Of a stretch of DNA of 58,619 bases, positions 1,504 to 37,464 are shown in pieces. The first letter of the stretch is position 1. Every line of letters starts with the position of its first letter. A program made the position numbers and the translations under genes. The notes beneath the pieces were generated by a model. It saw only the letters and a list, made by a program, of their open reading frames with translations. It was not told the origin of the DNA and searched no databases. Source of the DNA: Ignavibacteriota bacterium (GTDB taxonomy: Bacteria > Bacteroidota > Ignavibacteria > UBA10030); contig PMZI01000069.1 of assembly GCA_003170475.1 (NCBI GenBank), forward strand, positions 1-58,619. The letters are read 5' to 3'.

Positions 1504-2348
1504 GAATCCTGGTAACAGGCGGCAGTGGTTTGGTCGGACGTTACGTGGTGGAAGAACTCAAATTGACCCATCACGTCGAGATCCTGGATATCAGGAAACC
1601 GGATCGCACGCTGTTGCCCTACCATCCGGTCGATTTGCTCGACGAAGAGATAACGAGAAAGCATGTTCGTGAGTTTGATGTCGTTGTTCACCTTGCCGGA
1701 ATTCCTCATCCTTTGAATGATCCCGCGGAAAAGGTCTTTCGGACCAACACTCAGGCCACATACAATCTGCTTGAGGCCTGTGCGGTCAATGGAATTCGGC
1801 GTTTCGTTTTCATCTCCAGTGAATCGGTTCTTGGCTTCGCTTTCTCGACAACCCGGATGTGGCCGGATTTTCTGCCGATCGATGAACGACATTCTCTTCG
1901 GCCCCAGGATCCTTACGGACTGAGTAAAGTCACGTGCGAGCAAATTTGTAATGGATTCAGCCGTCGAACCGGAATGCAGACCATATGCCTTCGCCCGCCC
2001 TGGGTGTGGGCGCCGGAACCGAAAGAAATTGCTTTCTACCGGCAACTCAGGACCGAGTATCCAAAGTGGTACAAAAACCTCTGGGCCTACATTCATGTGT
2101 TTGACGTTGCGAAAGCGGTTCGCCAGTGTGTGGAATCTTCCGAACTTCCGCAGCACGACTCGTATTTCATCTGTTCGCCGGAAACCTGGGTCGATGTCGA
2201 ATCCAGGGAACTCGTCGCCCGGTTTTTCCCAGAGACTGGCCAAATATCTGAGTCGATTGCCGGAAGAGCCTCGCTCATCTCCTGCGAGAAAGCAAAAAAG
2301 GCATTTGGTTTTTCAGCACACTATTCGTGGCGGGATATCATCCCCTAA
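1500..2348 (+). CDS. NAD(P)-dependent epimerase/dehydratase (extended SDR)
   Basis: 282 aa. The N-terminal Rossmann motif VTGGSGLVG (residues 5-13) binds NAD(P), and the catalytic pair is in YGLSK. The upstream serine of the triad is in FISSESV. This is the extended short-chain dehydrogenase fold used by UDP-glucose epimerases and related sugar-nucleotide enzymes. The protein is at the short end of the family and the substrate cannot be told from sequence. GGAG 8 nt before the ATG and the ATGA overlap with the nuclease gene decide the start. Neighbours do not form an obvious sugar pathway. Confidence 0.85.
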   Translation: MRILVTGGSGLVGRYVVEELKLTHHVEILDIRKPDRTLLPYHPVDLLDEEITRKHVREFDVVVHLAGIPHPLNDPAEKVFRTNTQATYNLLEACAVNGIRRFVFISSESVLGFAFSTTRMWPDFLPIDERHSLRPQDPYGLSKVTCEQICNGFSRRTGMQTICLRPPWVWAPEPKEIAFYRQLRTEYPKWYKNLWAYIHVFDVAKAVRQCVESSELPQHDSYFICSPETWVDVESRELVARFFPETGQISESIAGRASLISCEKAKKAFGFSAHYSWRDIIP

Positions 2349-2373
2349 AACTGCTGGATCAAAGAACACGATC

Positions 2374-3318
2374 ATGAAGCCAAAGCCTATTCTGATTGAT
2401 ACCGACACAGGTGTAGACGATGCCATGGCATTGGTTCTGGCTTTCAATTCGCCGGAACTTTCGGTCAAAGCGATCACGACAGTGGCCGGGAATATCGATG
2501 TAGCCAAATGCACCCGAAACGTGGAGAGAATCCTTGATCTCCTCAACGTTCAGGATCGGCCGATTGTTGCTGAGGGTGCACGGCGACCCCTCCGGCTTCC
2601 ATTGTTGAGAGCGTCTGAAGTGCATGGAAAAGACGGACTTGGAGATGTGCCGGAATATTTGCCGCGATCACGAAAGTCTAAACATCCGCGGGCTGTGGAG
2701 ACGATTCTGCGATGTTGTGATCTGTACGGATCCAGACTCACGATAGTAGCCATTGGCCCATTGACAAACCTTGCTCTTGCCTGGAAGAAAAATCCGCGGG
2801 TGATGCGAAAAGTTGGGCGGATCGTGACCATGGGTGGTGCTCTCCGCGTCCAGGGAAACACAGGCCCGGTGGCAGAGTTCAACTACTTCGTCGATCCGGA
2901 TGCGGCACACATGGTTCTTAATTCCGGTATTTCTGTCACGGTGATTCCGCTCGATGTGACACATCAAGCGGTGGTCATGAGGAAGGAGATGGAGTATAGA
3001 GCAAGACGCCGCACCGGTCGTGTGGCACTCGCAATCCTGAAATTCACCGAAGCATACATGAAATACCATCTTGACACCCTGGGCTTCAACGGCGGATATC
3101 TTCATGATCCAATGGCCGTCGGTGTTGCGATCAATCCCGGGCTCGTGAAGACTCGAAACGTACACGTCGACGTTGAATCGAGAGGCACCTATACGCGGGG
3201 GATGACGGTGACGGATCTGCAGGAACATCTCGACTCTTCTCAGACCACCGTGGACGTCGCAGTGGCCGTCGACCGCGAACGTTTTCTTAAACTCTTCCAC
3301 GATCGTTTATGGAAGTGA
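2374..3318 (+). CDS. Inosine/uridine-preferring nucleoside hydrolase
   Basis: 314 aa, the usual length for the IUNH family. These enzymes hydrolyse the N-glycosidic bond of ribonucleosides to free base and ribose. The calcium-binding motif DTDTGVDDA lies near residues 8-16, and the conserved histidine region LHDPMAVGVAI is near the C-terminal third. The frame is open upstream to about 1951, but that part overlaps the SDR gene and lacks family similarity, so the ATG followed by KPKPILIDTDTG is taken as the start. It ends 10 bp inside the next gene. With adenosine deaminase, PNP and GuaA elsewhere in the window it fits purine salvage, although the genes are not linked as one operon. Confidence 0.9.
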   Translation: MKPKPILIDTDTGVDDAMALVLAFNSPELSVKAITTVAGNIDVAKCTRNVERILDLLNVQDRPIVAEGARRPLRLPLLRASEVHGKDGLGDVPEYLPRSRKSKHPRAVETILRCCDLYGSRLTIVAIGPLTNLALAWKKNPRVMRKVGRIVTMGGALRVQGNTGPVAEFNYFVDPDAAHMVLNSGISVTVIPLDVTHQAVVMRKEMEYRARRRTGRVALAILKFTEAYMKYHLDTLGFNGGYLHDPMAVGVAINPGLVKTRNVHVDVESRGTYTRGMTVTDLQEHLDSSQTTVDVAVAVDRERFLKLFHDRLWK

Positions 3319-5285
3319 AGAAATTCTTGGAACGTAGAACGAAAGGGCCGGGTCGTAATCGTCCGGTTGTTCGTTGCGTTGCGGGTTTCTTTAACGTCGT
3401 GATTCTTCTTTTCACCTTCTCTTCTGAAGCTGCCGCTCAGGAAGCTCTCCGGCCATCTGCGGTGCGCCTGGAGGACAGCCTCCGCGTTTCCTCGTTCGGG
3501 TTTGATCGCTCGCTGAATACGTTCACATGGAATGGCACCCTTTTCCTTGATCGGGAGTTCAACGGGATCGAATTCAAGCTGCGTCAGATCCTTCGGTCTC
3601 GACTTATTCGCACCGATCCGCTCTCGATTCAGGACGAGTATGGAGACAGTCTAACCATCGCGGCTCCGATCGTTGGCCCTTGGAAGGGATTTGTTCAACA
3701 AGTGTCATCGCTGGTCTCGGACAATCGCGCGATAGATTTGACGAAGCTTGCTCAACACCAGTTTCTGCTCGGTGTTCGAGTCTCTCCGTATCCTCGGCTC
3801 ATGCTGCAGGGGATGGCAGGCTACGAAATTGACGCCCAGCAGGATGAACGCGACGAAGGATTTACCTATCAAGCAGGTGCCGACGTTCGGGAGATGCAGC
3901 TTGAAGAATTCCGCGGGACGTTGCATGGCCACTGGGAACAATCGCTGCTGACGCGCCGCCGTCCGGCGTCCGCTTCACTCGATGTGTCTCTCGTTCGGGA
4001 GTTCGGAGCGGAGGGGCGAAATACCATTCTGATCTCCTACGATCAACTCCGTCGTGAATTCTACACTGCTGCCGACCCGGATGTCCAGCGAGTCTATCAA
4101 ATTGCCAACAACATCTTTCGCCGTGACGCAGCAACCTTCGAGGTTTCCGATCAGCTCTACTATCGTCCCTCTGATCAGATGCAGTTTGTTTTCCGGGGAG
4201 GTCTTCTCAACCGCACGATCGACCGCGGGATGAACTACAAAGTCTTCACCGGGACTTCAAATCCGCTGCTCGACACCCGTATCCAGGAACTCCAGCTGTA
4301 TGGCGAGGCGGGAACCACGATTCAGCTCATCCCTTGGTTAGGTGTGGATGTGAATCTCACGTACCGAGAACGCGAAGAGCGCCACAACGTGACCGAACAG
4401 GATGGGGTTCCACTTTCCGTGCTTCAACGTCAGGAACGATCCGAGCAACGCTTGGAGAATATTGCGCAGCGAACGAGTATTTCGTCCCAGATTCGGACCA
4501 CACTTTCTGACCATGATCAGTTGAACTTTGCAGGATCAGCAAGTATCTTACGCTACGACACGCCCGATAGCACGAACGTCGATGAGCGCGATGAGTTGCT
4601 CGTCACCGTCGGGTTTCAGGAGGTTCATCAGTTTAGCAATGAGCTCAGTGTGAGCTTCGCAGGGGACGTTACCCTGAATCATCTTGTGTATTTGAAAAGC
4701 GTGCAGAGCGCCAATAACAACTGGAATCGGGTGATACGGTTCTCGCCTGCCGTCACCTTCATGCCCAGTGAGAGGTTCCGAACAGTGAATCAGGCCGAGG
4801 TCCTCGGCAACTACACGGTGTACGACTTTGAAGACCAGGCTGCGTTTACGAAGAGCTTTTCGTTTCGACAGGCGTCGTGGGTCGATTCGACTGCCGTTCA
4901 GGTAACGAACCTTCTCGGTTTCAGTTTTGTTGGAGAAGTCAGAGTCTACGAGCGCGGCATTCTCCAATGGTCCGATTTTAAGGAACGGCCCCAGGACTAT
5001 TTTGTTGAGCAATCCTACTGGCCTCGTCTGACGTATGATGTAGCCCGGGATCTGCGCCTTGGAGTTGGGTTTCGCTATTTCGGTCAGGACAGGTACAGTT
5101 ATCAGGGCGGGACAAAGAATCTCGAGCGCCAGCTTGCAACTTCCGGACCAACGGTAGCGTTGGAATGGGGAGGGATAGGGTTCCAGCATGTTCTGCTGGA
5201 AGGGTGGAACGAGACTCAACGGCAAGACGGACAAGCGACTCGCGCAATTCCTAACGTATCTTTGAAAGTCAATTTCACAATGTGA
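3309..5285 (+). CDS. Large outer-membrane beta-barrel-like protein, unknown function
   Basis: 658 aa. The N-terminus has a basic stretch, a hydrophobic core (GFFNVVILLFTFSSEA) and an AAAQ-type cleavage site, so it is exported. The rest is rich in alternating polar/hydrophobic strands with many aromatic residues (for example GTTIQLIPWLGVDVNLTYRE) and ends in VSLKVNFTM, a typical terminal strand of an outer-membrane barrel. I do not recognise a named family. It overlaps the nucleoside hydrolase by 10 bp and the following ATP-binding protein abuts it, suggesting one transcription unit. Barrel topology is inference from composition. Confidence 0.75.
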   Translation: MEVKKFLERRTKGPGRNRPVVRCVAGFFNVVILLFTFSSEAAAQEALRPSAVRLEDSLRVSSFGFDRSLNTFTWNGTLFLDREFNGIEFKLRQILRSRLIRTDPLSIQDEYGDSLTIAAPIVGPWKGFVQQVSSLVSDNRAIDLTKLAQHQFLLGVRVSPYPRLMLQGMAGYEIDAQQDERDEGFTYQAGADVREMQLEEFRGTLHGHWEQSLLTRRRPASASLDVSLVREFGAEGRNTILISYDQLRREFYTAADPDVQRVYQIANNIFRRDAATFEVSDQLYYRPSDQMQFVFRGGLLNRTIDRGMNYKVFTGTSNPLLDTRIQELQLYGEAGTTIQLIPWLGVDVNLTYREREERHNVTEQDGVPLSVLQRQERSEQRLENIAQRTSISSQIRTTLSDHDQLNFAGSASILRYDTPDSTNVDERDELLVTVGFQEVHQFSNELSVSFAGDVTLNHLVYLKSVQSANNNWNRVIRFSPAVTFMPSERFRTVNQAEVLGNYTVYDFEDQAAFTKSFSFRQASWVDSTAVQVTNLLGFSFVGEVRVYERGILQWSDFKERPQDYFVEQSYWPRLTYDVARDLRLGVGFRYFGQDRYSYQGGTKNLERQLATSGPTVALEWGGIGFQHVLLEGWNETQRQDGQATRAIPNVSLKVNFTM

Positions 5286-32576: not shown

Positions 32577-34607
32577 ATGATCGTGCGCAATTTCTTCGTT
32601 GTTTCCTTTCTGGTCGCTCTTCTGTTCTTCGCGTCAACGACACCTGCAACAGCAGCGACGGCCGTTGATGACAGCGTGCTCTACAAGCCTGCAGTCGAAC
32701 GCAGTTTCCAGCAAGCATTGAACCTCTTTCGAGGCACGCGCTACGCTGAAGCTCGCGCATTGTTCGAACAAATCGTCGACCTGCCGGGGACCAATCACCG
32801 TACGAGCGCTTCGTTTTTGATGGCGGCAAAGTCCCGGTATCATCAGGGCGAATACGCCGCGTCTGTTGTACTGCTGCAGGCATTTCTTGAACGCTTCGAG
32901 CGCTCCGAGTATCTGGACGATGCTCAATACACTCTTGCCCTGGACTACTATCAGCTCGAACAGTATCGGGAATCCGCGCGAGCATTCCTCAAGGTTCGGC
33001 AGACGTCTCCCGATCCGCTTCTCGCTGCCCGGGCAGTAAAGATGCTGGGTCTTGTCGCACAAGAGAATCTCGACAGTGAAGAAGTGCGCGAGCTTCTGGC
33101 TGAAGCGAATCAGACAGAGACGAAAGCCCTGCTCACCGTCCGCCTGGCGCAAAAAGTTCTGCAGACAGGCGATGCCCGCGGGACACGTGAACTCCTGAGC
33201 ACCATCCTGGGATTACCGGATACGCTCTCGGCCGTGGTGGAAGCCCGTCAGTTGATGAAGAAAATCGACCAGAGCGGCGTTGTGAGGATTGGAGTCGTCT
33301 TGCCGCTGACGGCGAAATCGGACGAATCGCTTGTTCACGGAGTTGGTGAGGAGTTGTTGGATGGTATCCGTCTCGCGACGGACGAGTATAACGCAGAGTC
33401 GATGCCAAAAGTGAACATCGAACTTCGCGATTCCGAACGTGATGCAGGAGTGGCGGCGCGTCAAGTATCAGAGCTCAGCTCTGATAGTCAGATTCTCGCT
33501 ATTCTCGGTCCGGTATTCAGTAATGAAGCGATAGCAGCAGCAGAGATCGCGAACAGGAGAGGGGCTCCTCTCCTGACGCCGACGGCCACCGCGACGGGTA
33601 TTGCATCCATCGGAAAATATGTGTTCCAGGCAAATCCAGATTTTGTGACTCGCGGACGCGCGATGGCGCAGTATGCGACGCTTGAGAGAGGTGCTCATCG
33701 ATTTGCGATTCTTGCTGCATCTGACAGTGCGGACCGTTCGACGACGGAAGCGTTCATCCGGGAGGTGCTGGATCTCGGCGGACAGATTGTCGACGTGCAG
33801 TACTACAAACCGGGTCAGACCGACCTTCGGGACGAGCTGACAGCAATGCGGCAACGAGGGTTGGAGCTCACCGAACCGATTGTCATCAATTTCGGCGCGA
33901 AGGCTCGACCCGCGGATCTTAAGAAGGTGGCAAACTGGGGTGTCCCTCAGTATGTCATCGATTCTCTGGTGACATCGAACAGTGTGGCAACGGTTGAATC
34001 TCTCTTTGGAAACAACGGGAGGCGCGTCGCTGATTCGATGAAGATCCCGACCCAACGCATCAGGGCAAAATACGACAGTCTTGGAATGCCGGTCGCCGCG
34101 TTTGATGCGATTTTTCTTCCCATCTCATCCCTGGAGGAAATTGGCATCGTTACTTCGCAGTTGAGGTACTTCAATTTCCAGGCGCAACTCCTTGGAAATG
34201 GCAACTGGTACGAGCCCAACGAACTCGAGCAGCAACGGCAGTACTGTAATGGGATCATCTTCACGGCAGATACCTACTGGGATGAGATCAACCAGCAGTA
34301 TCAACAGTTCACAAAGCAATTTCGACTCAAGTTCTCAAAAGATCCTACCAAGAATTCCATGATCGGATATGATTCGATGAAGCTTCTCTTGAATGCAATC
34401 CGTCAGGGTGCGAGGAGGCGCGAAGAAATTGCTTCCATGCTTGGCAGCTCCCAGACTTTTCAAGGCATTCACTCGAAGATTTCTCTTGGCTCAAGCAGAG
34501 TCAATTCCTGTCTTACCATCCTCCAGTTCAAGAACAGGTCCATCAAGAAAATCGGTGAGATTGATGTGAGTCGAAAGACGATCATCGGCACCGACGAGCA
34601 GCGGTGA
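32577..34607 (+). CDS. TPR plus periplasmic-binding-fold protein (LpoA-like architecture)
   Basis: 676 aa. A signal peptide (MIVRNFFVVSFLVALLFFAS, AATA cleavage region) is followed by helical TPR-like repeats (about 35-230, for example LNLFRGTRYAEARALFEQIV and YHQGEYAASVVLLQAFLERF). From about 243 there is a type I periplasmic-binding (branched-chain amino acid receptor) fold: RIGVVLPLTAKSDE, ILGPVFSNEAIAAAEIANRRGAPLLTPTAT, QANPDFVTRGRAMAQYA. This layout is that of LpoA, the outer-membrane activator of a peptidoglycan synthase, but a solute-sensing role is also possible. No lipobox is seen, so it may be soluble in the periplasm. Its stop overlaps radC. Confidence 0.83.
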   Translation: MIVRNFFVVSFLVALLFFASTTPATAATAVDDSVLYKPAVERSFQQALNLFRGTRYAEARALFEQIVDLPGTNHRTSASFLMAAKSRYHQGEYAASVVLLQAFLERFERSEYLDDAQYTLALDYYQLEQYRESARAFLKVRQTSPDPLLAARAVKMLGLVAQENLDSEEVRELLAEANQTETKALLTVRLAQKVLQTGDARGTRELLSTILGLPDTLSAVVEARQLMKKIDQSGVVRIGVVLPLTAKSDESLVHGVGEELLDGIRLATDEYNAESMPKVNIELRDSERDAGVAARQVSELSSDSQILAILGPVFSNEAIAAAEIANRRGAPLLTPTATATGIASIGKYVFQANPDFVTRGRAMAQYATLERGAHRFAILAASDSADRSTTEAFIREVLDLGGQIVDVQYYKPGQTDLRDELTAMRQRGLELTEPIVINFGAKARPADLKKVANWGVPQYVIDSLVTSNSVATVESLFGNNGRRVADSMKIPTQRIRAKYDSLGMPVAAFDAIFLPISSLEEIGIVTSQLRYFNFQAQLLGNGNWYEPNELEQQRQYCNGIIFTADTYWDEINQQYQQFTKQFRLKFSKDPTKNSMIGYDSMKLLLNAIRQGARRREEIASMLGSSQTFQGIHSKISLGSSRVNSCLTILQFKNRSIKKIGEIDVSRKTIIGTDEQR

Positions 34608-35329
34608 AATCCCAACAGCGAAACCTCCGTGGTGTTTTTGAGCCATCGCACTACCATACGACCATCAAACAATGGCCTGAAGGGGAGCGACCGCGCGAAA
34701 AGATGATGAAGCATGGTTCTGCGGCGCTGACGGATGCCGAGCTCCTCGCCATTCTCATTCGAACCGGATCGAGGGGTGCGACAGCGGTCGATCTTGCAAA
34801 GAAGCTACTTTCCGAACGGCGGACGCTTCGGGACCTGGCACGAATGTCGGTGGTGGACCTTGGCCAGCTAGGAATCGGCCGGGTGCGCTCGGCTGCCATC
34901 GTTGCCGCCTTTGAACTCTGCAGGAGGATGCCCGCGAGCGGAGGATCAGAGCGGCCGACCTTTCGCGCACCTGAAGATGTCACCATCGTTTTTCTTCCGA
35001 AGCTTCGGGACCTCCAGCACGAGGAGTTCTGGGTATTGCTGCTCTCAACGTCAAACCAGTTGATTCGTGAGATCCGGATCACCAGTGGCACGCTGAACTC
35101 ATCTCTTGTTCATCCCCGAGAATGCTTCTCGGAGGCTCTGAAAGAGAAGGCAGCCAGCGTGATTTTTGTTCACAACCATCCCAGCGGGAATCCTGAGCCA
35201 AGTCAGGAGGATCTTTCGATCACGAGGCAGTTGACGGAGGCGGGGAAGATACTCGGGATACCGGTGTACGATCATATCGTGGTCGGCGGCGCGCAATTTG
35301 TCAGTTTTGCTCAGCGCGGCTTGCTCTGA
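34604..35329 (+). CDS. radC: RadC/JAMM-domain DNA repair-like protein
   Basis: 241 aa. The start is the GTG overlapping the previous stop by 4 bp (GTGA). An N-terminal helix-hairpin-helix region (about 40-105, MMKHGSAALTDAELLAILIRTGS and GIGRVRSAAI) is followed by the JAMM/MPN metalloprotease-like domain with FVHNHPSGNPEPSQED. The cellular role of RadC remains unsettled despite its name. The insertion element begins 21 bp after its stop, so the 3-prime flank is rearranged but the gene is intact. Confidence 0.96.
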   Translation: MKSQQRNLRGVFEPSHYHTTIKQWPEGERPREKMMKHGSAALTDAELLAILIRTGSRGATAVDLAKKLLSERRTLRDLARMSVVDLGQLGIGRVRSAAIVAAFELCRRMPASGGSERPTFRAPEDVTIVFLPKLRDLQHEEFWVLLLSTSNQLIREIRITSGTLNSSLVHPRECFSEALKEKAASVIFVHNHPSGNPEPSQEDLSITRQLTEAGKILGIPVYDHIVVGGAQFVSFAQRGLL

Positions 35330-35342
35330 AATCCGTCGTTAA

Positions 35343-35350
35343 AAAATAGT
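35343..35350 (+). repeat. Left copy of 8-bp target-site duplication
   Basis: AAAATAGT directly abuts the left inverted repeat and is repeated exactly at 37410-37417. An 8-bp duplication is what IS1595-family elements generate. Confidence 0.9.
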
Positions 35351-35377
35351 CGGAATTATATACTTGACAAACCCACG
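35351..35377 (+). repeat. Left terminal inverted repeat
   Basis: 27 bp starting CGGAATTATA; pairs with 37383-37409 with 7 mismatches. The shared core reads TACTTGAC, then two variable bases, then ACCCA. The -35 box TTGACA of the transposase promoter lies inside it. Confidence 0.9.
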
Positions 35378-35392
35378 TTTATTTTGTATATT
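35364..35392 (+). promoter_or_regulatory. Transposase promoter, partly inside the left inverted repeat
   Basis: -35 TTGACA (35364-35369, consensus), 17 bp, -10 TATATT (35387-35392). A transcript would start near 35399, 23 nt before the transposase ATG. Overlap with the inverted repeat means bound transposase could repress its own expression (inference). Confidence 0.75.
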
Positions 35393-35421
35393 ACTGGTGA
35401 ACAAAGACAACGGAGTTCACC

Positions 35422-36330
35422 ATGAAAAAGACCTCGGAAAAACCCTTCAATTCTCTCCTTGATGTCGTCAAGCGATTCCCGGACGAGAAATCTTGTCGCG
35501 AATATCTTGCTTATGCGCGATGGGGCGATCTGCCTATTTGCGTTCACTGCGGATACACGGAGAAAATCTATCGCATCAATGACGGCAAACTCTACAAGTG
35601 CGCCAAGTGTCGGAAGCAGTTCACAGTTCGCGTTGGAACGATCTTCGAGGACTCCGCTCTTCCCCTGCAAAAGTGGTTCATGGCGATCTATCTTTTGACA
35701 GCACACAAGAAGGGCATTTCCTCTGTGCAGCTTGGTAAGGATATTGGCGTAACTCAAAAGACCGCTTGGTTCATGCTTCATCGGATTCGATACGCCGTCA
35801 GAACCAAGACGTTCAACAAGAAACTCTCTGGTACAATTGAGGCAGATGAAACCTATGTCGGCGGACACGGGCATAAAGCCGGACGCGGTTCTGAGGCCAA
35901 AACTCCCGTATTCGGAATGGCACAACGTGGCGGGGATGTTGAGGCACAAGCCGTCACGCGAGTAAACATGGAAACGCTGGTACCAATATTGAATGAACGC
36001 GTTGATTCTGATTCGACGATAATGACAGACGAATGGAAGGCATACCAGAAACTTGGTCGGCGTTTCAAATCGCATCAGCACGTCAACCACAATAGAGGCG
36101 AATACGCTCGCGGCGATGTTCACACGAACACAATCGAATCCTTCTGGTCGATGCTCAAGCGCGGTATTTACGGTATCTATCATCATGTCAGCCCAAAGCA
36201 TTTAGATAAGTACGTTGACGAATTTGAGTTTAGGTGTAACTCTAAGCATGTTGCAGATGCCCGAAGATTCGGATTGATGCTGAACATCTGTCAAGGCAGA
36301 TTGACTCATGAACAACTCATCGGATCATAA
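35422..36330 (+). CDS. ISXO2-like (IS1595 family) DDE transposase
   Basis: 302 aa. An N-terminal zinc ribbon has C40-x2-C43 and C60-x2-C63 (ICVHCG, KCAKC). A helix-turn-helix-like stretch (SSVQLGKDIGVTQKTAWFML) follows. The ISXO2-like RNase-H catalytic core has D142 in IEADETYVGG, D203 in MTDEWKAY and E239 in NTIESFWS, a D-35-E spacing. The tail YHHVSPKHLDKYVDEFEFRCN is family-typical. GGAG 6-7 nt before the ATG gives a sound start. It appears full length. Its end overlaps the passenger gene by 23 bp. Confidence 0.95.
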   Translation: MKKTSEKPFNSLLDVVKRFPDEKSCREYLAYARWGDLPICVHCGYTEKIYRINDGKLYKCAKCRKQFTVRVGTIFEDSALPLQKWFMAIYLLTAHKKGISSVQLGKDIGVTQKTAWFMLHRIRYAVRTKTFNKKLSGTIEADETYVGGHGHKAGRGSEAKTPVFGMAQRGGDVEAQAVTRVNMETLVPILNERVDSDSTIMTDEWKAYQKLGRRFKSHQHVNHNRGEYARGDVHTNTIESFWSMLKRGIYGIYHHVSPKHLDKYVDEFEFRCNSKHVADARRFGLMLNICQGRLTHEQLIGS

Positions 36331-37186
36331 TAACGCGAACCAAAAGAACGCCGACAGCGAACCCGAGTCCGAAAAGAAGAGTAAGAAGTCGGATAAGTCC
36401 GTTCTGAGTAAGTTCTACGGTCTTTATAATACGCTGACCGGGGTTGCTGGCGTCTTGGCCGTTGTTGCTGGCGTCTTTATTCATGGTATCCTCGCTACAA
36501 TCTTTCTCGTCATTGGTGTGATTCTTTTCCTATTCGCAGTCCATGTCGAACTTGATGAACACGTCGAAAAGCCAACTTGGTTTGTAACTCCACTCATTGG
36601 ACTGGTCTTGTTATTCGGTTATCTCTTCCAGCCTAAGAACGAAACCATTGTAGCACCACAAAATTCACCAATGAGAATAGTGCCAAACCTTCCAACCAAA
36701 GATTCCCCGATAAATAGACATGACTCCATCCCTTCAGTCGAACGAAGACAACCCGAGAGAATCGCAAAGGCTTATCCCGGCTTTAAGAGCTTAGATGTCA
36801 CCATGCCGCTCTCAGAAGGAAAAGAATTTCATGTCGAAATCATGATATACAATTTTGGAGACGCAGCCGCACTCGATTTCAAGTGTGATGTTCATTTGGC
36901 AATCCTATCAAGAGCAGAACTGAAAGATGTTGTTCCTAAGAAATACCGCTTTGTAAGCGCTCCCGTGGACCTCCTACCAAAACAATCAATCGCCGCGGGT
37001 GTCGGATACCCCCCAAGCAGAGTAACACCCGAGCTACTCAGGGCGGTATCCAACGAAGAATACTCCATCGTCCTGTGGTGTGTCATGGAATACAAGGATG
37101 AAGCTGGAAGACTATGCAGACCAAAACCCATCATCCGCCGATATTTTAGCGTATTGAACAACTTTACGTTTCCTCCAGAGCCATAG
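36308..37186 (+). CDS. Passenger membrane protein of the insertion element, unknown function
   Basis: 292 aa, no family recognised. Residues 1-35 are hydrophilic and highly charged, with many Asn, Ser, Lys and Glu. Three membrane helices follow (about 41-57, 60-79 and 91-107: TGVAGVLAVVAGVFIHGILA, FLVIGVILFLFAV, FVTPLIGLVLLFGYLF). A soluble domain of about 180 residues contains EFHVEIMIYNFGDAAALDFKC, which suggests a beta-sandwich, then a Cys-containing end. It starts 23 bp inside the transposase gene, so it is translated from the same mRNA. It is not needed for transposition by known mechanisms. It could be a cargo gene offering an advantage, or a regulator. Base composition is more AT-rich than in the host genes. 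Confidence 0.8.
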   Translation: MNNSSDHNNANQKNADSEPESEKKSKKSDKSVLSKFYGLYNTLTGVAGVLAVVAGVFIHGILATIFLVIGVILFLFAVHVELDEHVEKPTWFVTPLIGLVLLFGYLFQPKNETIVAPQNSPMRIVPNLPTKDSPINRHDSIPSVERRQPERIAKAYPGFKSLDVTMPLSEGKEFHVEIMIYNFGDAAALDFKCDVHLAILSRAELKDVVPKKYRFVSAPVDLLPKQSIAAGVGYPPSRVTPELLRAVSNEEYSIVLWCVMEYKDEAGRLCRPKPIIRRYFSVLNNFTFPPEP

Positions 37187-37216
37187 CAATGCGATGCCCA
37201 GAATGCGGAGATTGAA

Positions 37217-37339
37217 ATGAAGAAGATCAAACCCATTGCCACCATAACGACCAAGCGCGAGAAACCCCCAAAACTCGAAATGAGCTTCCAAGAGGCAATG
37301 CTCCGGATCGTCCGCGTGCCACCACCACTGAAGAAGTGA
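37217..37339 (+). CDS. 40-residue ORF in the insertion element
   Basis: 40 aa, very basic, preceded by GCGGAG at 6 nt from the ATG, one of the better ribosome binding sites in the window. The sequence starts MKKIKPIATITTKREKPPK, continues with an amphipathic helix (MSFQEAMLRIV) and ends RVPPPLKK. It begins 30 bp after the stop of the passenger gene and ends 43 bp before the right inverted repeat. No family is assigned. It may be a small accessory protein of the element, a toxin-like or antitoxin-like peptide, or non-functional. Confidence 0.55.
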   Translation: MKKIKPIATITTKREKPPKLEMSFQEAMLRIVRVPPPLKK

Positions 37340-37382
37340 CCTAAAAACGTCTTAGTGAAATTCATGCCTTTAGCCTTCGTTT

Positions 37383-37409
37383 CATGGGTGGGTCAAGTAA
37401 GTAGTCCCG
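37383..37409 (-). repeat. Right terminal inverted repeat
   Basis: 27 bp; its complement starts CGGGACTACT and matches the left end at 20 of 27 positions, including the terminal CGG and the internal TACTTGAC core. Confidence 0.9.
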
Positions 37410-37417
37410 AAAATAGT
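37410..37417 (+). repeat. Right copy of 8-bp target-site duplication
   Basis: AAAATAGT, identical to 35343-35350. Removing the element and one copy restores a continuous short radC-lipoprotein intergenic region. Confidence 0.9.
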
Positions 37418-37435: not shown

Positions 37436-37464
37436 TTGACTTTTGCGGCTGTAATCTGTATCAT
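37436..37464 (+). promoter_or_regulatory. Promoter of the small-lipoprotein/LysM operon
   Basis: -35 TTGACT (37436-37441), 17 bp, -10 TATCAT (37459-37464). It lies 18 bp beyond the insertion element, so expression of the two downstream genes should survive the insertion. Confidence 0.7.

Follow-up and report, generated by a model that had tools for sequence, protein, structure and literature searches.

An insertion sequence (IS) is commonly pictured as a single transposase gene flanked by a pair of repeats. The element described here, at positions 35351-37409 of contig PMZI01000069.1 (assembly GCA_003170475.1, Ignavibacteriota bacterium), holds three co-oriented genes between its terminal repeats, namely an IS1595-family transposase gene, a passenger gene for a predicted membrane protein, and a short open reading frame (ORF) of 40 residues. 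The whole stretch of 58,619 bp that was analysed is called the window. The IS1595 family is described in PMC8101967 as having a single transposase gene and, usually, 8-bp target duplications, with an N-terminal zinc finger in all groups but IS1016.

Passenger-bearing ISs are a known kind, termed transporter ISs (tIS) in PMC7986276 and PMC5704250, and the window element belongs with them, since its passenger (36308-37186) lies within 35351-37409. The elements tISCpe8 and MTnSag1 are classed in PMC5704250 as integrative and mobilizable elements, and 25-bp terminal inverted repeats are given there for elements of their type; a title cited by the same source calls tISCpe8 a lincomycin-resistance element. 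The window element resembles both in its IS1595-family DDE transposase, its terminal inverted repeats, its flanking direct repeats, and the extra genes inside. Unlike theirs, its passenger is an orphan membrane protein, and neither a resistance nor a relaxase domain was recognised when its two larger ORFs were scanned with Pfam and NCBIfam (no search was made for an oriT). With short IS1595 ISs such as ISApl4 it shares the family transposase and the 8-bp direct repeats; ISApl4, as far as its description goes, is 712 bp long, has an IS1016-type transposase without a passenger and perfect 14-bp repeats, and is present in 39 copies in one genome.

The nearest elements, at loci L220, L219, L222, L221, L224, and L225, have transposases 55-62% identical to that of the window and contain the small ORF. 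Terminal repeats similar to those of the window together with a perfect 8-bp duplication were found in all of them save L222, whose ends were not found at the threshold of the end-finder described below. Their cargo is unlike that of the window: a protein of 181 aa in L220, in which a single hydrophobic stretch can be made out by eye, a soluble protein in L219, a protein with three transmembrane (TM) segments in L222, a 2-TM protein in L221, a SocA-like protein in L224, and a methylase-type protein in L225 (here and below, the family named for any one locus apart from L224 was judged by eye). The window element is complete and single-copy, and we read it as a transporter IS of the IS1595 family that probably combines a slot for cargo with a small accessory gene, apparently not described before. 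It is an element of known kind with an orphan passenger, and its small ORF and cargo slot are more interesting than the passenger itself.

Boundaries and transposase of the element

The element is 2059 bp long and complete, as had been claimed in an earlier note made from the sequence alone. An 8-bp target duplication, AAAATAGT, is present at 35343-35350 on the left and at 37410-37417 on the right, which agrees with that note, and the site is empty, with continuous sequence, in 5/5 congeneric genomes examined. The terminal inverted repeats (left, 35351-35377, forward strand; right, 37383-37409, reverse strand) pair at 19 of 26 positions; the 27-bp inverted repeats announced by the note thus exist, but they are imperfect rather than exact.

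An end-finder, which scores pairs of ends by their terminal repeats together with the 8-bp duplication, was applied to 210 non-redundant IS1595-type transposase loci (215 after superseded duplicates were dropped, and 210 after redundant transposases were dropped). As the null, 210 chimeras were used, each joining the left flank of one locus to an unrelated right flank. At a threshold of 27, 73 of the 210 real loci passed compared with 0 of the 210 chimeras, and the window element scored 30. Seven of the 73 delimited elements (L034, L075, L084, L097, L132, L175, and L189, scores 27-28.5) have ends unlike those of the family and are perhaps false.

The transposase, 302 aa and uninterrupted, is encoded at 35422-36330 on the forward strand. 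It matched the Pfam family PF12762 (DDE_Tnp_IS1595; E=3.7e-47, 160.6 bits, cut-off 27), the zinc ribbon PF12760 (E=1.9e-12, 47.3 bits, cut-off 25.4), and the NCBIfam IS1595 model NF033547 (223.8 bits, cut-off 75). Across 208 aligned transposases, residues D142, D203, E239, and K246 each show at least 97% conservation, and they are read as the putative catalytic DDE+K residues. The DDE domain, the zinc finger, the 8-bp duplication, and the presence of one transposase ORF in the element all conform to the IS1595 family, for which ISfinder has seven subgroups (ISPna2, ISH4, IS1016, IS1595, ISSod11, ISNwi, and ISNha5).

A cargo slot downstream of the transposase

The statement of the earlier note that passenger genes are known in this family was borne out, extra DNA at this position being the rule among delimited relatives. 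More than 300 bp follows the transposase in 69 of the 73 delimited elements (the window included) and more than 600 bp in 68 of the 73, with a median of 1529 bp; when the seven elements with doubtful ends were left out, 62 of 66 carried more than 600 bp. The 73 elements yielded 136 cargo ORFs of at least 80 aa, which fell into 96 clusters with 80 singletons, a number inflated by the mechanical calling of the ORFs, which includes antisense and chance ORFs; one 14-member cluster was chained via a shared small motif. Where the transposases of two elements were identical to 70% or more, the cargo shared a cluster in 12 of 44 pairs. Cargo turns over quickly.

Pfam was run on 86 of the 136 cargo ORFs, chosen by hand, the 50 dropped being mainly short or antisense. 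In the resulting counts, where one protein may match several families, P63C was found 8 times, RhuM 6 times, and UPF0020 5 times; the D12, N6_N4, and N6 methylases, PDDEXK_11, and DUF3800 were found 4 times each, KilA-N 3 times, and MvaI_BcnI, SocA_Panacea, HSDR_N_2, and Bro-N twice each. The remaining families among the 25 of 31 listed, including PIN, were found once. Some cargo matched PADLOC models as well, the 25 of 296 models listed being PDC-S05, PDC-S23, and mad2. Judged from these matches, the cargo is often of the restriction-modification, antitoxin-like, or phage-antirepressor type.

In L055, L061, L066, L096, L098, L101, and L125, a P63C/RhuM/antirepressor-like gene overlaps or directly follows the transposase gene and sits there as if replacing the small ORF. 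According to the record titles, these loci are mostly from Bacteroidetes, with L066 from Nitrosomonas and L125 a viral contig.

The passenger protein

The passenger gene (36308-37186, forward strand) encodes 292 aa and overlaps the transposase gene by 23 bp. Hydropathy gave three membrane segments in the product. The overlap and the three-helix membrane architecture had both been recognised in the earlier note, and its view that the family is unrecognised also holds: no match above cut-off was obtained with Pfam, NCBIfam, PHROGs, or PADLOC, the best Pfam score being 18.4 bits for DUF3784 against a cut-off of 28.1. A single-sequence AlphaFold2 model was of low confidence (mean pLDDT 51.3, pTM 0.30); it placed helices at 31-83 and 93-106, followed by strands between 160 and 278, so that the C-terminal half is modelled, with low confidence, as beta-rich. 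A Foldseek search with this model had fibronectin III as its best PDB match (E=0.086), followed by Kir channels and further beta proteins, and was not used as evidence.

Relatives of the passenger are few. A search of 395 genomes of the phylum gave matches in two, which were its own genome and one weak match to the membrane region. In 98 genomes of the order, eight had a match at E<=0.1, its own included, and only one other match was good. This was L239, a 280-aa chromosomal protein from the same order (E=2.9e-7 in this search), whose membrane module is 29% identical to passenger residues 38-141 (BLASTP E=6e-12). The C-terminal half of L239 is of similar size to that of the passenger, and homology between the two halves was not demonstrated by leave-out HMMs or hhalign. 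A two-sequence passenger profile found matches in four of 391 class genomes, two of them being the members of the profile itself. No passenger relative stood beside a transposase in the phylum, order, or class genomes. Ten passenger-match loci were checked and no transposase was found, save that L245 gave a transposase match over 40 residues (E=0.003), and there the passenger match itself reached only E=0.09; the order-genome matches L240-L245 ranged from E 0.009 to 0.09. Searches of PLSDB and phage records by tblastn gave no passenger relative, nor did scans with short peptides, able to pick up close relatives alone, of the contigs in IMG/VR and GTDB. Conservation of the same transposase-passenger pair, which the earlier note had raised as a sign of selected cargo, was therefore not seen in the phylum, order, or class genomes, PLSDB, or phage records. 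The note had also reasoned that passenger homologues occurring mostly outside ISs would speak against a selected pair. The sole good relative does lie outside an IS and counts against that idea, as a single case (n=1).

The gene of L239 (L246, 7962-8804) stands alone in an ordinary chromosomal setting, presumably a dapA/dapB - efflux-pump neighbourhood, without a nearby transposase. The weak matches L003 (967-1860) and L250 (1363-2250) are confined to the membrane region, which in these proteins is joined to C-terminal halves unlike that of the passenger. This region may be a modular membrane anchor that Pfam does not name.

Given these results, it is quite plausible, if somewhat short of an even chance, that the passenger is a host gene captured by chance, a transient hitch-hiker under no selection in the element, and that the slot is merely permissive. 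Such a capture would fit the fast turnover of cargo and the fact that the nearest elements have the small ORF, not the passenger, in common. It would also fit a passenger that is single-copy, lacks IS-linked relatives, and has as its distant relative a stand-alone chromosomal gene. However, the cargo of related elements is non-random, with many genes of the restriction-modification, antitoxin-like, or antirepressor type. The passenger frame furthermore runs for 292 codons without a stop, and its codon use resembles that of the host (0.027 compared with -0.416 and -0.500 in the other two frames), although a recent insertion would give the same picture.

We regard it as unlikely that the passenger is instead a membrane-bound defence or exclusion protein directed against phages or other elements. 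The slot often holds restriction-modification and PADLOC-matching genes, and membrane cargo is predicted by hydropathy in the near elements L221, L222, L226, L267, and L268, and by eye in L220. Nevertheless, the hydrophobic stretch of L220 is below the hydropathy threshold, and the passenger itself matched no Pfam family and none of the PADLOC families of anti-phage defence genes at E<=1e-4; the argument is one of guilt by association. Homology of the passenger C-terminal domain to other membrane cargoes was also considered and was unsupported by shuffled pairwise scores, leave-out HMMs, and hhalign (E 0.34-0.42); what these sequences suggest is an architectural resemblance only. L220 alone had a sub-threshold CARDB match (E=0.009).

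A conserved small ORF

The third gene, at 37217-37339 on the forward strand, was overlooked in the first reading. It encodes 40 aa with a basic N-terminus, a short predicted helix, and a PPPLKK tail; when the window small ORF was analysed alone, a single helix was predicted at 24-31. The conserved helix has the pattern FxEAxxRIVRV. It has no Pfam or PHROGs match. No description of it was found in the literature surveyed, the founding IS1595 family paper being outside that survey.

A small-ORF profile was grown from 17 seeds to 51 sequences, and most of its matches shared the strand of the transposase and lay at its stop codon or farther downstream. In five random 2-fold cross-validations, in which the split set had been gathered with all loci, 39-45 matches were obtained at E<0.01. 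Of these, 37-44 were on the transposase strand, 36-43 fell in the interval from -60 to +3000 relative to the transposase stop, and 24-30 lay within 60 nt of it; 18-22 matches were inside delimited elements and 1 outside. A model of 34 sequences, from which known window-class loci had been excluded, still matched the window small ORF at E=7.4e-8, and matched 7 of 22 other held-out loci. The ungapped core of the small ORF is identical between the window and L219 at 21 of 28 residues (75%), with pS 0.69 and pN 0.20, and the whole ORF is 64% identical; the transposases of the two elements are 61% identical, and their cargo is different.

Two further subfamilies of small ORFs occupy the same place. 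The labels of the subfamilies required 22 changes on the transposase tree, which held 208 of the 210 loci (2 were dropped), compared with 79.7 in shuffles (minimum 74), near-copies also contributing to this clustering of labels. The three subfamily models found no small ORF in many elements where, by eye, a P63C-, RhuM-, or KilA-N-like gene directly follows the transposase.

Across 294 class genomes, the small-ORF profile gave 18 matches in 13 genomes, and 17 of the 18 were in or beside IS1595 elements or remnants (14 at loci with a transposase, 2 with a transposase remnant, and 1 in a decayed element); the last was a chance match. Among the eight matches that were not already in the profile, seven were so placed: L269, L270, and L275 have a transposase, L267 and L268 a transposase remnant, L274 is an orphan small-ORF copy upstream of an element, and L276, extended as L277, is a decayed IS1595 element. 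The eighth, L271, is the chance match, inside an unrelated ORF. In the genomes searched, the small-ORF family is thus found almost only in or beside IS1595 elements.

We consider it unlikely that the small ORF merely belongs to the cargo, or is a leader for translation coupling, and has no role of its own as a protein. Consistent with a leader, the small ORF often overlaps the transposase stop codon, and a small-ORF motif of the DMPFDEALxRF type is fused to the cargo N-terminus in several elements (L040, L045, L071, L087, L115, and L130), the cargo being a DNA methylase by eye in some of these fusions. On the other hand, the small-ORF core is kept beside different cargo, the small ORF is also found downstream of the cargo, which is its place in the window, and L165, an element of 1308 bp without cargo, has a small ORF belonging to another subfamily.

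In L277 (G499, ~1596-4911), the right terminal repeat, the small ORF, and restriction-modification-like genes are arranged on one strand, and neither a transposase nor a left end was found there. L221/L280 (G078) is a complete element with a second, orphan small ORF ~1.9 kb upstream of the transposase stop, perhaps a remnant of another element.

A proposed two-gene core with a cargo slot

In our proposal, the transposase would act on the two imperfect terminal repeats; that insertion made an 8-bp target duplication is shown by the anatomy of the element and by the empty sites. Transcription may start at a promoter-like site in the left end (TTGACA-17-TATATT, 35364-35392, forward strand), a consensus match only, at 11/12, whose TTGACA -35 hexamer sits inside the left terminal repeat, and the passenger would be translationally coupled to the transposase. 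The small protein is most likely the element's own accessory factor, e.g., a transposase partner or regulator, and the passenger is in all likelihood cargo, occupying a slot where relatives have other genes. Conceivably the passenger acts on the host in a way that helps the element to persist, as would be expected of the restriction-modification and antitoxin-like genes that relatives carry. Copy-out transposition is plausible because the related MTnSag1, an IS1595-related mobilizable element, forms a circular intermediate (PMC5704250).

More generally, we tentatively propose, with somewhat less than even confidence, that the IS1595 elements with passengers possess a second core gene that has escaped description. 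It would encode small basic helical proteins, of at least three subfamilies with possibly separate origins, which travel with the transposase, persist through cargo swaps, and are sometimes fused to the cargo. These proteins might assist transposition as accessory factors or serve as tags by which cargo docks, so that the elements would be modular cargo platforms. If the small ORF is truly an accessory gene, an IS lineage that occurs across many bacterial phyla would have a core of two genes, together with a slot that lets restriction-modification, antitoxin-like, and orphan membrane proteins circulate as cargo. The region between an IS1595 transposase and the small ORF would then be a route to unrecognised IS cargo.

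Several observations weigh against these proposals. The comparison of the small-ORF core with L219 spans 28 residues only, the three subfamily models reach only 89 of the 210 loci and 33 of the 73 delimited elements, and 10 of the 18 genome-wide matches were already members of the profile. The passenger has no IS-linked relative, and its sole good relative, L239, is outside an IS. Moreover, both termini of the window element begin with CGG, the first base being C rather than G. Termini of the IS1595 family begin with GG, and so do those of most delimited relatives; the same start is given for the related Merlin elements in PMC8101967. The termini of the close relative L221 likewise start with C, and the C-for-G start is a one-base departure that is not taken as defining for IS1595 membership.

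Copy number and insertion site

The source genome, a draft of 85 contigs, contains the element once and has a single IS1595 transposase. The several copies for which the earlier note had suggested a search were thus not found, and with a single copy in the genome the element is not part of a compound transposon, i.e., one with two flanking IS copies. With no second copy to confirm the ends, the evidence was taken from the empty site. When the two flanks in the window were joined, they aligned unbroken to the nearest congener, with 85.5% identity over positions 2-243, and to the other congeners, with 71-74% identity. As read from these alignments, the insertion appears to have happened after this species parted from the congeners examined. 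That the element was wrongly joined into a contig of this draft assembly is very improbable, because the perfect 8-bp duplication and the empty sites at the same point in five congeners indicate transposition rather than misassembly.

Directly upstream of the insertion lies a gene at 34604-35329 (forward strand), which we take to be RadC-like. In all five congeners, this gene is followed directly by genes that we take to encode a lipoprotein and a LysM-like protein. A host promoter-like site at 37436-37464 (forward strand), presumably that of the lipoprotein gene and with hexamers recognisable in the congeners, is intact 18 bp downstream of the right duplication.

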